From: an uncultured Bacteroidota bacterium
GTDB taxonomy: Bacteria > Bacteroidota > Bacteroidia > B-17B0 > Aurantibacillaceae
Length of the DNA stretch: 64,000 bases
Reading direction: 5' to 3'
Assembly: GCA_903834765.1 (NCBI GenBank)
Contig: CAILKE010000071.1
Coordinates: forward strand, 1-64,000
Shown here piece by piece: positions 34,830 through 37,938 of the stretch (positions are counted from its first letter, which is position 1; each line of letters opens with the position of its first letter). The notes under the pieces are model-generated. The model made no database searches, had not been told where the DNA came from, and worked only from the letters and a program-made list of their open reading frames with translations. A program made the translations under genes and the position numbers.

Positions 34830-35840
34830 ATGGCTAAGAGTTCAGATAAAAAAACTAAGTTCACTCAAGAACAATATTTAAAATGGTACGAATCAATGTT
34901 ATTGATGCGTAAGTTTGAAGAAAAAACTGGGCAAGTATATGTTCAACAAAAAATAAAAGGCTTCTGTCATTTATATATTGGTCAAGAGGCCATTGTAGCG
35001 GGTACTGTAAGTGCTACCAAAAAAGAAGACAAACATATCACAGCCTACCGCTGCCATGCGCATGGCATTGGCTTAGGTATGCATCCAAAATATATTATGG
35101 CCGAAATGTATGCGAAGATCACTGGTTGCTGTAAAGGTAAAGGTGGAAGTATGCATATTTTCAGCAAGGAACATAACTTTGTTGGAGGTCATGGTATTGT
35201 TGGTGGTCAAATTCCTTTAGGGGCTGGACTTGCATTTGCAGATAAATATCAAGGTACTGATTACGTAACCGTTTGCTCTATGGGCGATGGTGCTGTTCGT
35301 CAAGGTGCTTTACACGAGGTATTTAACATGGCTATGACATGGAAATTACCAGTTGTATTTATTGTAGAGAATAATATGTATGCTATGGGAACATCTGTGG
35401 AACGCACAAGTAATGTTCACGATCTATGGAAATTAGGATTAGCTTATGATATGCCAAGTAAACCTGTAGATGGCTTGACGGTTGAAGCCGTTCATGAAGC
35501 GATGGAAGAGGCTGTGGCTAGAGCTCGTAGGGGTGATGGTCCAACGTTTTTAGAAATGAAAACATATCGTTATAAAGGGCATTCCATGAGTGATGCTCAA
35601 ACATATCGTACTAAAGACGAAGTAAAAGAATACCAAACTCAGGATCCTATCCAAAAAGTATTAGAAACATTAATTGCTAATAAATGGATTGACGATGCTG
35701 GCATTGAAGTAATCGATGAAAAAGTAAAAGCATTGGTTGATGAGTCAGTAAAATTTGCTGAAGAAAGCCCGTATCCAGAGCCTGAAGAGCTTTACAAAGA
35801 TGTATATGCTGAAGCAAATTATCCATACATTTTAGAATAA
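34830..35840 (+). CDS. pdhA: Pyruvate dehydrogenase E1 component, alpha subunit
   Basis: With thiamine diphosphate, E1 decarboxylates pyruvate and acetylates the lipoyl arm of E2. The 336-residue alpha subunit has the ThDP motif G-D-G-(A)...N-N (MGDGAVRQGALHEVFNMA ... FIVENNMYAMGTS, about 150-190). The phosphorylation-loop region YRYKGHSMSDAQTYR and the N-terminal CHLYIGQEA and AYRCHAHGIGLG segments are also present. The beta subunit gene is not in the window. E2 (pdhC) is the next enzyme gene, but a small four-helix-bundle gene is wedged between them. Confidence 0.96.
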   Translation: MAKSSDKKTKFTQEQYLKWYESMLLMRKFEEKTGQVYVQQKIKGFCHLYIGQEAIVAGTVSATKKEDKHITAYRCHAHGIGLGMHPKYIMAEMYAKITGCCKGKGGSMHIFSKEHNFVGGHGIVGGQIPLGAGLAFADKYQGTDYVTVCSMGDGAVRQGALHEVFNMAMTWKLPVVFIVENNMYAMGTSVERTSNVHDLWKLGLAYDMPSKPVDGLTVEAVHEAMEEAVARARRGDGPTFLEMKTYRYKGHSMSDAQTYRTKDEVKEYQTQDPIQKVLETLIANKWIDDAGIEVIDEKVKALVDESVKFAEESPYPEPEELYKDVYAEANYPYILE

Positions 35841-35849
35841 TGTTAAATT

Positions 35850-35869
35850 TTGAATGATAAATTTTAAAT
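35850..35869 (-). repeat. Left 20-bp inverted repeat of S23 cassette
   Basis: The reverse complement reads ATTTAAAATTTATCATTCAA, identical over all 20 bases to 36218-36237 and 36289-36308. It begins 10 nt after the pdhA stop codon and runs into the ATG of the four-helix-bundle gene. Confidence 0.85.
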
Positions 35870-36218
35870 GTATCCAAAACCGAATATTATAGTTGATAAA
35901 ACATTTAATTTTTCTAAAGAAATAATTAAATTATATATCAATTTAAAAAATGATAAAATTTATGAATTAGCATCTCAGTTATTTAGAAGTGGAACTAGTA
36001 TTGGCGCAAATGTAGAAGAGGCTCAAGCGGCTCAGTCAAAAAAAGATTTTATTTCTAAATTAAGTATCTCTGCAAAAGAAGCCCGAGAAACACGATACTG
36101 GCTAAGACTGTTGAGCGAGACGAACATATCGCAAATAGATGTAAAGCCATTATTAAACGATATTAATGAAATAATAAATATTTTAACTAAAATTATTAAA
36201 ACATCAAATGATAAATAA
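35868..36218 (+). CDS. Four-helix-bundle protein (S23/IVP family)
   Basis: This 116-residue helical protein belongs to the family first seen in intervening sequences of 23S rRNA and related in fold to the DGR accessory protein Avd. Diagnostic residues are SFEI-like LINLKNDKIYELASQLFRSG, then TSIGANVEEAQAAQSKKDFI (about 43-62) and SAKEARETRYWLRLL (about 69-83). The function of free-standing members is unknown; nucleic-acid binding through basic faces is suspected. Here it is wedged between pdhA and pdhC and enclosed by inverted repeats, as if it were a cargo gene. Same strand as the pdh genes, so it is probably read through with them. Confidence 0.88.
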   Translation: MYPKPNIIVDKTFNFSKEIIKLYINLKNDKIYELASQLFRSGTSIGANVEEAQAAQSKKDFISKLSISAKEARETRYWLRLLSETNISQIDVKPLLNDINEIINILTKIIKTSNDK

Positions 36219-36310
36219 TTTAAAATTTATCATTCAACACTAAAGATTAATTAGATAACATACATTATAAAAACTTAAGTGATAAATAATTTAAAATTTA
36301 TCATTCAACA
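36209..36310 (+). repeat. 31-bp perfect direct repeat pair
   Basis: Positions 36209-36239 and 36280-36310 are identical over 31 bp, 71 nt apart. The first copy includes the last codons and stop of the four-helix-bundle gene. The second ends 17 nt before the pdhC start codon. Each contains the 20-bp repeat core and an imperfect palindrome (GATAAAT...ATTTATC). Confidence 0.9.
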
Positions 36311-36327
36311 TTTAAAATTTCATTAAC

Positions 36328-37938
36328 ATGGCTGAAATCGTAAGAATGCCCAAATTAAGTGATACAATGACGGATGGCGTTATTGCAAAATGGCACAAAA
36401 AAGTTGGAGATAAAGTTAAAAGCGGTGAGTTATTAGCCGATATAGAAACTGACAAAGCAACCATGGAATTTGAATCATTTCAGGATGGTGTTTTATTACA
36501 TATTGGCGTTCCAGAAAAAGGTACTATCGCTGTGGATGGCCTCATTGCTATACTTGGCAAAGAAGGCGAAGACATCAGTGGAATTATAAATGAAAAATTA
36601 GAAATGAAAAATGAAATTGTAACTTCAAAACTAGAAAGTGAAAATAATTTATCATCTAACATTTATAATTTAAAATTACCCTTAGGTGTTGAAGTTGTTC
36701 GTATGCCAAAATTAAGTGATACAATGACAGAAGGCGTTGTTGAGAAATGGCACAAAAAAGTAGGCGATAAAGTAAAGAGTGGCGAATTACTAGCGGATAT
36801 CGCTACAGATAAAGCAACCATGGAGTTTGAATCATTTCAAGATGGTGTGTTAATTCATATTGGTGTTGCAGAAGGAAAAAGTGTTCCTGTTGATAGTGTT
36901 TTAGCTATCTTAGGAAAAGGTGGGGAAGATATCGCAGCCATTTTGAAAACGATTGAAGGTCCTGGAAAGACTCAAGAGACTAAAGGGACTCAAGAGAAAA
37001 AGGAGACAAGCACAACTATAACAACTCCTACAACATCAAACAACTCTGCTCAAACAACCAATAACTCTAATGACGGTAGAGTAAAAGCAAGTCCTTTAGC
37101 AAAAGCAATAGCAAAAGAAAAAGGTATTGATATTTCAAAAGTGAATGGTTCCGGTGATCATGGCCGTGTAACCAAATCAGATATAGAAAATTACAAACCA
37201 CAAGCGACATCTAGCAGTAGTAATTCAAAAACTGTAAGTTCGTTTGTGCCAGGAGCAGAAGGTTACACAGATGAACCTACTTCTCAAATGCGAAAAGTAA
37301 TTGCAAAACGATTATTAGAAAGCACAAATGGAGCACCGCATTTTTATTTAACAATAGAAGTGGATATGGATAATGCTATCGCTTCTCGAAATGCTATTAA
37401 TGCGATGCCTGATACAAAAGTGTCATTTAATGACTTAGTAATTAAAGCCTGTGCAGTAGCATTACGCAAACATCCAAAAGTAAATACGTCTTGGATGGGA
37501 GATAAGATTCGCTATTACTCTCACGTCCATATTGGTGTAGCAGTTGCAGTGGAAGAAGGATTATTAGTTCCTGTAGTTCGCTTTGCTGATCAAAAATCAT
37601 TATCTCAAATTAGCGCTGAAGTAAAAGATTTAGGAAAACGTGCTAAGGATAAAAAATTACAACCGGCAGATTGGGAAGGAAATACATTTACAGTATCTAA
37701 TTTAGGCATGTTTGGTATTGATGAGTTTACTTCCATTATCAACTCACCTGAGTCTTGTATCTTATCAGTTGGTGCTATCAAACAAGTTCCCGTAGTAAAA
37801 AATAATCAAGTAGTTCCAGGTTCTGTAATGAAAGTAACCTTAGCTTGCGACCACAGAACGGTTGACGGAGCAACGGGTGCTGCTTTCTTACAAACATTAA
37901 GAACTTACTTAGAAAATCCAGTAACGATATTGGCTTAA
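36328..37938 (+). CDS. pdhC: Pyruvate dehydrogenase E2 (dihydrolipoamide acetyltransferase), two lipoyl domains
   Basis: E2 is the core of the complex and passes acetyl from lipoyl-lysine to CoA. The 536-residue protein has two very similar lipoyl domains (1-80 and about 122-200) with lipoylated Lys in E/A-T-D-K-A-T-M (about 42 and 160). A Gln/Thr/Asn-rich linker, an E1/E3-binding domain (KASPLAKAIAKEKGIDISKV, about 250-283) and a catalytic domain ending in D-H-R-T-V-D-G-A (His about 508) follow. The linker between the lipoyl domains (about 88-120, including NNLSSNIYNLKLP) is encoded by a diverged copy of the repeat that borders the upstream cassette (36647-36678). Confidence 0.95.
   Translation: MAEIVRMPKLSDTMTDGVIAKWHKKVGDKVKSGELLADIETDKATMEFESFQDGVLLHIGVPEKGTIAVDGLIAILGKEGEDISGIINEKLEMKNEIVTSKLESENNLSSNIYNLKLPLGVEVVRMPKLSDTMTEGVVEKWHKKVGDKVKSGELLADIATDKATMEFESFQDGVLIHIGVAEGKSVPVDSVLAILGKGGEDIAAILKTIEGPGKTQETKGTQEKKETSTTITTPTTSNNSAQTTNNSNDGRVKASPLAKAIAKEKGIDISKVNGSGDHGRVTKSDIENYKPQATSSSSNSKTVSSFVPGAEGYTDEPTSQMRKVIAKRLLESTNGAPHFYLTIEVDMDNAIASRNAINAMPDTKVSFNDLVIKACAVALRKHPKVNTSWMGDKIRYYSHVHIGVAVAVEEGLLVPVVRFADQKSLSQISAEVKDLGKRAKDKKLQPADWEGNTFTVSNLGMFGIDEFTSIINSPESCILSVGAIKQVPVVKNNQVVPGSVMKVTLACDHRTVDGATGAAFLQTLRTYLENPVTILA
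36647..36678 (+). repeat. Diverged copy of cassette repeat inside pdhC
   Basis: ATTTATCATCTAACATTTA at 36647-36665 differs at only two positions from 36296-36314 (ATTTATCATTCAACATTTA). The match extends weakly into ATAATTTAAAATT. It is in frame and encodes the unusual inter-lipoyl linker of E2. Confidence 0.6.

Follow-up and report, generated by a model that had tools for sequence, protein, structure and literature searches.

Most of the sampled genes of the S23/IVP family, in many bacterial phyla, sit between complementary arms that lie near their start and stop codons and consist of degenerate, tandem seven-nucleotide words (heptads). The recurrence of this hairpin-bounded design suggests that operons harbour a hitherto undescribed class of mobile inserts. 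One such gene lies between pdhA and pdhC in the window, which here means the whole 64,000-nucleotide stretch of an uncultured Bacteroidota bacterium (contig CAILKE010000071.1) that was analysed. The unit that contains it is read here, with somewhat better than even confidence, as an intercistronic mobile element that resembles the intervening sequences (IVSs) of 23S rRNA and holds its S23 gene in the loop of a hairpin of tandem 7-nt words. The structure of S23/IVP proteins has been solved since 2006, and to our knowledge these proteins have no known function; likewise, we know of no explanation for the heptamer repeats that have long been seen in bacterial intergenic regions.

The S23 unit between pdhA and pdhC

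The unit and its host genes are listed in Table 1, together with the nuclease genes discussed further below. The window's protein belongs to the S23 (IVP) family by both profiles, scoring 91.4 bits against PF05635 (curated cut-off 33.8) and 107.8 against TIGR02436 (cut-off 24), and a close relative with a solved structure is 2RLD (E 3e-24). The preliminary description had placed perfect 20-bp inverted repeats at the start and stop codons of the gene, and positions 35850-35869 and 36218-36237 are indeed exact reverse complements. The same 20-mer recurs at 36289-36308, and the 31-bp duplicate of the right end that had also been described, TGATAAATAATTTAAAATTTATCATTCAACA, is present at 36209-36239 and 36280-36310. 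The last heptad of the left (5') arm supplies the ATG at 35868, and the proximal 3' arm overlaps the stop codon and is predicted to form a small hairpin with the sequence from 36209 onward. The S23 gene had been said to fill the pdhA-pdhC gap exactly; a PF05635 gene does lie in the gap, but the cassette is not alone there, because the extra copy of the right end comes after it.

Table 1. Coordinates of the S23 unit, its host genes and the arm-bounded nuclease genes
Feature	Position	Strand	Basis or remark
pdhA, pyruvate dehydrogenase E1 alpha, upstream host gene	34830..35840	+	ORF; orthologues in relatives, 45-93% identity over query
5' arm of heptads, TGTTAAATTTTGAATGATAAATTTTAAAT	35841..35869	+	Inverted repeats, arm score 53, RNA fold
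S23/IVP four-helix-bundle protein, PF05635, TIGR02436, 116 aa	35868..36218	+	ORF, profile matches, PDB 2RLD
Proximal 3' arm, complementary to 35850-35869 over 20 bp without mismatch	36218..36249	+	Repeat comparison, RNA fold
Distal 3' arm, second copy of right end	36277..36320	+	Repeat comparison, RNA fold
pdhC, dihydrolipoamide acetyltransferase, downstream host gene	36328..37938	+	ORF
PDDEXK_3 in heptad inverted-repeat arms	L116:8126-8515; L244:4715-5098; L388:1489-1863
PDDEXK_3 in heptad arms	L170 5026-5433; L241 3145-3519	minus	Coordinates in reverse complement of locus

By local alignment the arms of the window's S23 gene score 53, where the 99th percentile for mismatched S23 flanks from the same genomes is 30. 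In the predicted RNA fold of positions 35835-36330 (-86.8 kcal/mol, compared with -64.6 ± 4.7 for shuffled sequences, z -4.75) base pairing joins the left arm to the distal right copy and leaves the ORF in the loop; the terminal inverted repeats form a predicted stem around the ORF, as is expected of an IVS. The window has no Rfam match, the unit lies between pdhA and pdhC and not in a 23S rRNA helix, and a conserved 23S motif was absent from the S23 loci that were searched for it. The view that the unit is a cassette which ends in repeats of its own and lacks a transposase is borne out in the window.

Arm-like repeat words also run in frame within the linker of pdhC (window 36965-37010, GACTCAAGAGACTAAAGGGACTCAAGAG), and in L066, downstream of pdhA, the pdhC linker similarly contains in-frame arm-like repeats (GACAGGGGACAGGAGACAGG).

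Empty junctions and other loci of the same genome

The pdhA-pdhC junction could be read in 17 genomes of the genus, and S23 is present there in two only, the window's own genome and G008. Empty sites, which the preliminary description had considered, do exist: G003 and G012 have a bare junction (GAC/ATG), and the remaining junctions of the genus carry other short sequences, several of which are S23-less hairpins with other words. Two genomes from other families have S23 at pdhA-pdhC with other words, the gene in L059 being from a different S23 clade.

The window's own genome (3.6 Mb, 79 contigs) holds seven S23 loci, all seven of which have flanking inverted repeats, each with its own simple words (TTAAGAAGTTAGATTTA at the S23 gene of the nuo operon and AAAGTTTAGAAAGT at that of the suf operon). 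On the question of whether other S23 genes carry the same ends, terminal repeats are found there too, but their sequence differs at each locus. A search with the window's 20-mer gave 37 places in this genome, compared with 16 for the reversed control, and elsewhere the word belongs to S23-less hairpins between genes; none of the other six S23 loci carries it, and the proposal of a MITE-like cassette with a shared 20-bp end fails on this point. At L006/L008 (G000:C4:152983-153301) the S23 gene is split by a frameshift and the matching arms are retained.

A MITE-like non-autonomous transposon, in which a transposase encoded elsewhere would recognise the terminal repeats and S23 would be passenger cargo, is in keeping with the inverted repeats, the empty sites, the absence of a transposase inside the unit and the S23-less hairpins that carry the window's word elsewhere in its genome. 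It is quite unlikely, however, as the terminal repeats are not common to same-genome copies (word similarity 0.12 below 35% S23 identity), the word follows the S23 protein and not the genome, and filled and bare pdhA-pdhC junctions, whose flanks have diverged, revealed no evident target-site duplication when compared by eye. Since the arms match each other and not other copies, across phyla, the element appears closer to a 23S IVS than to a MITE. The earlier reading of the unit as a minimal non-autonomous mobile cassette is partly supported.

Complementary arms around S23 genes across bacteria

Of 60 Bacteroidia genomes, 48 have PF05635 matches in a profile search, with 1-23 in each. Arms were scored by locally aligning the 150 nt before each gene with the reverse-complemented 150 nt after it. 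At 110 Bacteroidia S23 loci the matched arms have a mean score of 34.0, compared with 17.5 for mismatched flanks from the same genome; 85 of these loci score above the 95th percentile, and clear arms are missing at 25. In direct orientation the same loci display little excess (mean 20.6, median 16). Unrelated small genes that served as controls have a mean arm score of 18.5, and the top scorers among them turned out to be further S23 copies or genes for PDDEXK_3.

In a second, independent sample, 80 S23 loci drawn from many phyla (Nitrospirota, Planctomycetota and Pseudomonadota among them) gave 32.4 versus 17.3 for mismatched arms. Similarly, the pooled loci of cyanobacterial plasmids (12 with S23, 2 with PDDEXK_3) gave 34.7 versus 18.0, with matching arms at plasmid S23 loci of Nostoc, Calothrix and Trichormus, among others. 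Many of the sampled genomes are metagenome-assembled, and the cyanobacterial plasmids and several other records come from cultures. In viral contigs no S23 gene was confirmed, and one PDDEXK_3 relative was found.

S23 genes also occur in clusters, with several genes within a few kb and different words, as in L116 (G027:C2 45-49 kb) and L102/L128 (G047:C1 116-123 kb). In addition, PF05635 lies inside long open frames at G071:C43:22553-22876 (471 aa) and G026:C51:8487-8807 (492 aa), possibly as S23 fusions.

Two S23 elements with heptad arms lie in cas operons, between cas6 and cas4 in Anabaena sp. 90 (L376) and between cas10/cmr2 and cmr3 in Picosynechococcus PCC 7003 (L389). In the literature, 18 S23 genes have been reported in cas loci (PMC3936711), and arm-bounded elements in cas operons may explain such published 'CRISPR-associated' 23S_rRNA_IVP genes.

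Heptad words and their tie to the S23 protein

The arms used for periodicity were chosen by complementarity and not by period. In Bacteroidia S23 arms, identity is 0.615 at lag 7 and 0.618 at lag 14 (0.33 when shuffled), 0.39 at lag 8 and at most about 0.34 at the remaining lags, and S23 arms from other phyla reach 0.60 at lag 7. G exceeds C in 68 of 74 Bacteroidia 5' arms and in 45 of 51 in the many-phyla set. When 132 loci are folded on seven columns, a consensus core A-[G/A]-T emerges with 2.21 bits, compared with 0.97 for shuffled arms, and C is almost absent at both purine positions of the heptad. The arms are 25-35 nt long at the quartiles, with a median of 4.3 heptads. The words are locus-specific; what the arms have in common is the period of 7, the G-rich 5' arm and the (A)RGT core.

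The relation of word to protein was assessed on S23 pairs from different genomes at different junctions. Where S23 identity is low, word similarity is 0.12; it climbs to 0.36 once identity exceeds 50%, and the coding flanks stay flat. Pairs of at least 45% identity reach 0.293, against a permutation mean of 0.144 and maximum of 0.188 (2000 permutations). For same-genome pairs below 35% identity, word similarity is at background. The type of word goes with the type of S23 protein, also where the genomes differ and the sites are unrelated, and of all the evidence this tie speaks most strongly for protein and arms being one unit, either moving or co-evolving together.

Heptads are also associated with S23 at the level of whole genomes. 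Gapless hairpin density over 20-kb stretches proved too insensitive, and lag-7 tracts were used instead: 20 strict tracts were found in 864 kb of S23-rich genomes, compared with none in 955 kb of S23-free ones. The pattern AGTNNNR x3 + AGT is present in 34 of 48 S23-containing and 1 of 12 S23-free Bacteroidia genomes, and phylum-wide in 81 of 116 versus 5 of 32 (p 4e-8, with kinship not fully corrected). Within genera the association is modest (permutation p 0.036); in genus g117 one genome has 4 S23 matches and 329 heptad matches, and its sister genome has zero of both. The main exception is G166, which has 107 AGT-heptad matches without any PF05635 match. AGT-heptad matches are also lacking in many genomes that hold one or two S23 genes and in the window's own genome, where the words have AAT in place of AGT. 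Heptad tracts without S23 are found mostly in genomes that have S23 genes elsewhere.

It could be argued that polymerase slippage makes intergenic heptads and fold-back hairpins neutrally, and that S23 is found there by chance. In many bacteria no long simple repeat is more frequent than the heptamer, and slippage is a proposed source (PMC4679880, PMC4692102); furthermore, repeat numbers differ between strains, as in Coxiella. Slippage leaves unexplained, however, why complementary arms flank one gene family (34.0, compared with 18.5 for control genes), why the RGT core and the polarity are conserved, and why the words are tied to S23 type and the tracts to S23 presence, and this account is highly unlikely.

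Residence in operons and a second cargo

S23 recurs at the sufB-sufC, fadB-fadA and nuoJ-nuoK junctions in different families, mostly with matching arms and other words. In a tree of 112 S23 proteins the junction groups are clustered (19 changes compared with 35 when shuffled), and many of them are not single clades. The clustering implies that part of the distribution reflects old residence and not fresh movement, and together with the differing words and the many groups that are not single clades it suggests a long stay with turnover of the arms, and junctions that have been filled repeatedly. The neighbours noted around S23 loci are host operon genes. S23 is on the same strand as its upstream neighbour in 91% of cases, compared with 80% for other genes (p 0.004), and its strand agreement with the downstream gene is not above that of other genes. 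Where dS could be estimated, dN/dS is 0.04-0.16, which indicates purifying selection and hence that the S23 protein is kept.

Both this selection and the recurrence of clustered S23 types at the same junctions across families would suit an immobile resident that binds its own leader and trailer heptads and thereby regulates or stabilises the operon mRNA. Such an autoregulated gene would not be expected to be as patchy as S23 is at pdhA-pdhC within one genus (2 of 17), with a different clade at that junction in L059, nor to appear as a like S23 type with a like word at unrelated junctions in different genomes, and we regard it as unlikely.

S23 is not the only gene found in such arms. PDDEXK_3 genes (PF13366, GxxExxY) have S23-type arms in 4 of 6 loci of the retrieved DNA; one more with heptad arms is present in Bernardetia, and the one in Persicobacter has none. 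The PDDEXK_3 nuclease is a second cargo type of the heptad arms.

Proposed mechanism and implications

For the favoured IVS-like mobile element, a mechanism may be proposed by analogy. The arms, co-transcribed with the host operon, would enclose the ORF by forming a duplex of about 30 bp. RNase III would cut this duplex as it does in S23-bearing 23S IVSs, so that insertion between genes would be tolerated. As a homopentameric ring made of five four-helix bundles, S23 could read the RGU/RGT core of successive heptads in the manner of TRAP, and such reading would tie each S23 protein to its own arms. Element and arms would spread together to unrelated junctions and later be lost, leaving bare junctions or S23-less hairpins; this joint spread and loss is partly shown. 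Sequence comparison suggests mobility itself, since some sites are empty and similar S23 types with similar words occur at dissimilar sites, and the presence of a nuclease gene in the same arms suggests that copying might proceed by cut and repair.

In its broadest form, the proposal is that these are widespread minimal mobile elements, an S23 ring or PDDEXK_3 in RGT-core hairpins, which co-evolve and co-travel with their arms and leave empty hairpins behind; we consider the chances for and against this to be about equal. If true, 23S rRNA IVSs, cyanobacterial STRRs and other heptamer repeats that lack an explanation would fall under one heading, and the S23 genes reported in cas loci would become insertions. 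An S23 gene inside a cas, suf, nuo or pdh operon is probably there as an insertion and not as a member of the pathway. Moreover, the tie between S23 and heptads provides testable partners, as the protein gains a predicted RGU/RGT target every 7 nt and the repeats a predicted maker or user, and it offers a possible origin for the fragmentation of 23S rRNA.

Comparison with known systems

REP/BIME repeats with RAYT genes are likewise small, dispersed palindromes with a link to one gene family. They differ from the present elements in that S23 is not a tyrosine transposase and its arms are arrays of heptads, with a word that changes from copy to copy. TRAP is an RNA-binding ring protein that reads triplets at fixed spacing; its fold is unrelated to that of S23, and it is proposed as an analogy for reading RGU every 7 nt. 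Avd of diversity-generating retroelements resembles PF05635 (PMC10053308); among the neighbours noted beside the present loci, which are host operon genes, there was no sign of a reverse transcriptase, an Avd setting or template and variable repeats. In the open-access literature, neither S23 elements between protein genes nor a heptamer-S23 tie outside rRNA was found.

Tandem 7-nt units in intergenic gaps are likewise seen in the cyanobacterial STRRs, the TAACTGA repeats of Beggiatoaceae and the GGGAATC repeats of Xanthomonas. In the sources consulted, those of cyanobacteria and Xanthomonas are able to form hairpins, those of Beggiatoaceae are heptamer direct repeats, and no gene family is tied to any of them, whereas the present heptads flank S23 or PDDEXK_3 as inverted arms.

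The closest likeness is to the 23S rRNA IVSs of Leptospira and Coxiella, in which one S23 ORF is looped in an inverted-repeat stem of about 28 bp. S23-bearing IVSs are about 430 nt long, and that of Coxiella has a 28-bp terminal stem, is excised by RNase III and shares with the present elements the tandem heptamers (GACAGAT in its case) just before the S23 ATG; its S23 is thought not to be expressed, and the Xanthomonas S23 is a toroidal homopentamer (PMC4990558). While these IVSs sit in rRNA helices, the present elements lie between protein genes of operons and occur in many copies per genome with locus-specific words. By its location the window's unit stands outside the 23S IVS class, and by analogy it probably works like a member of it.
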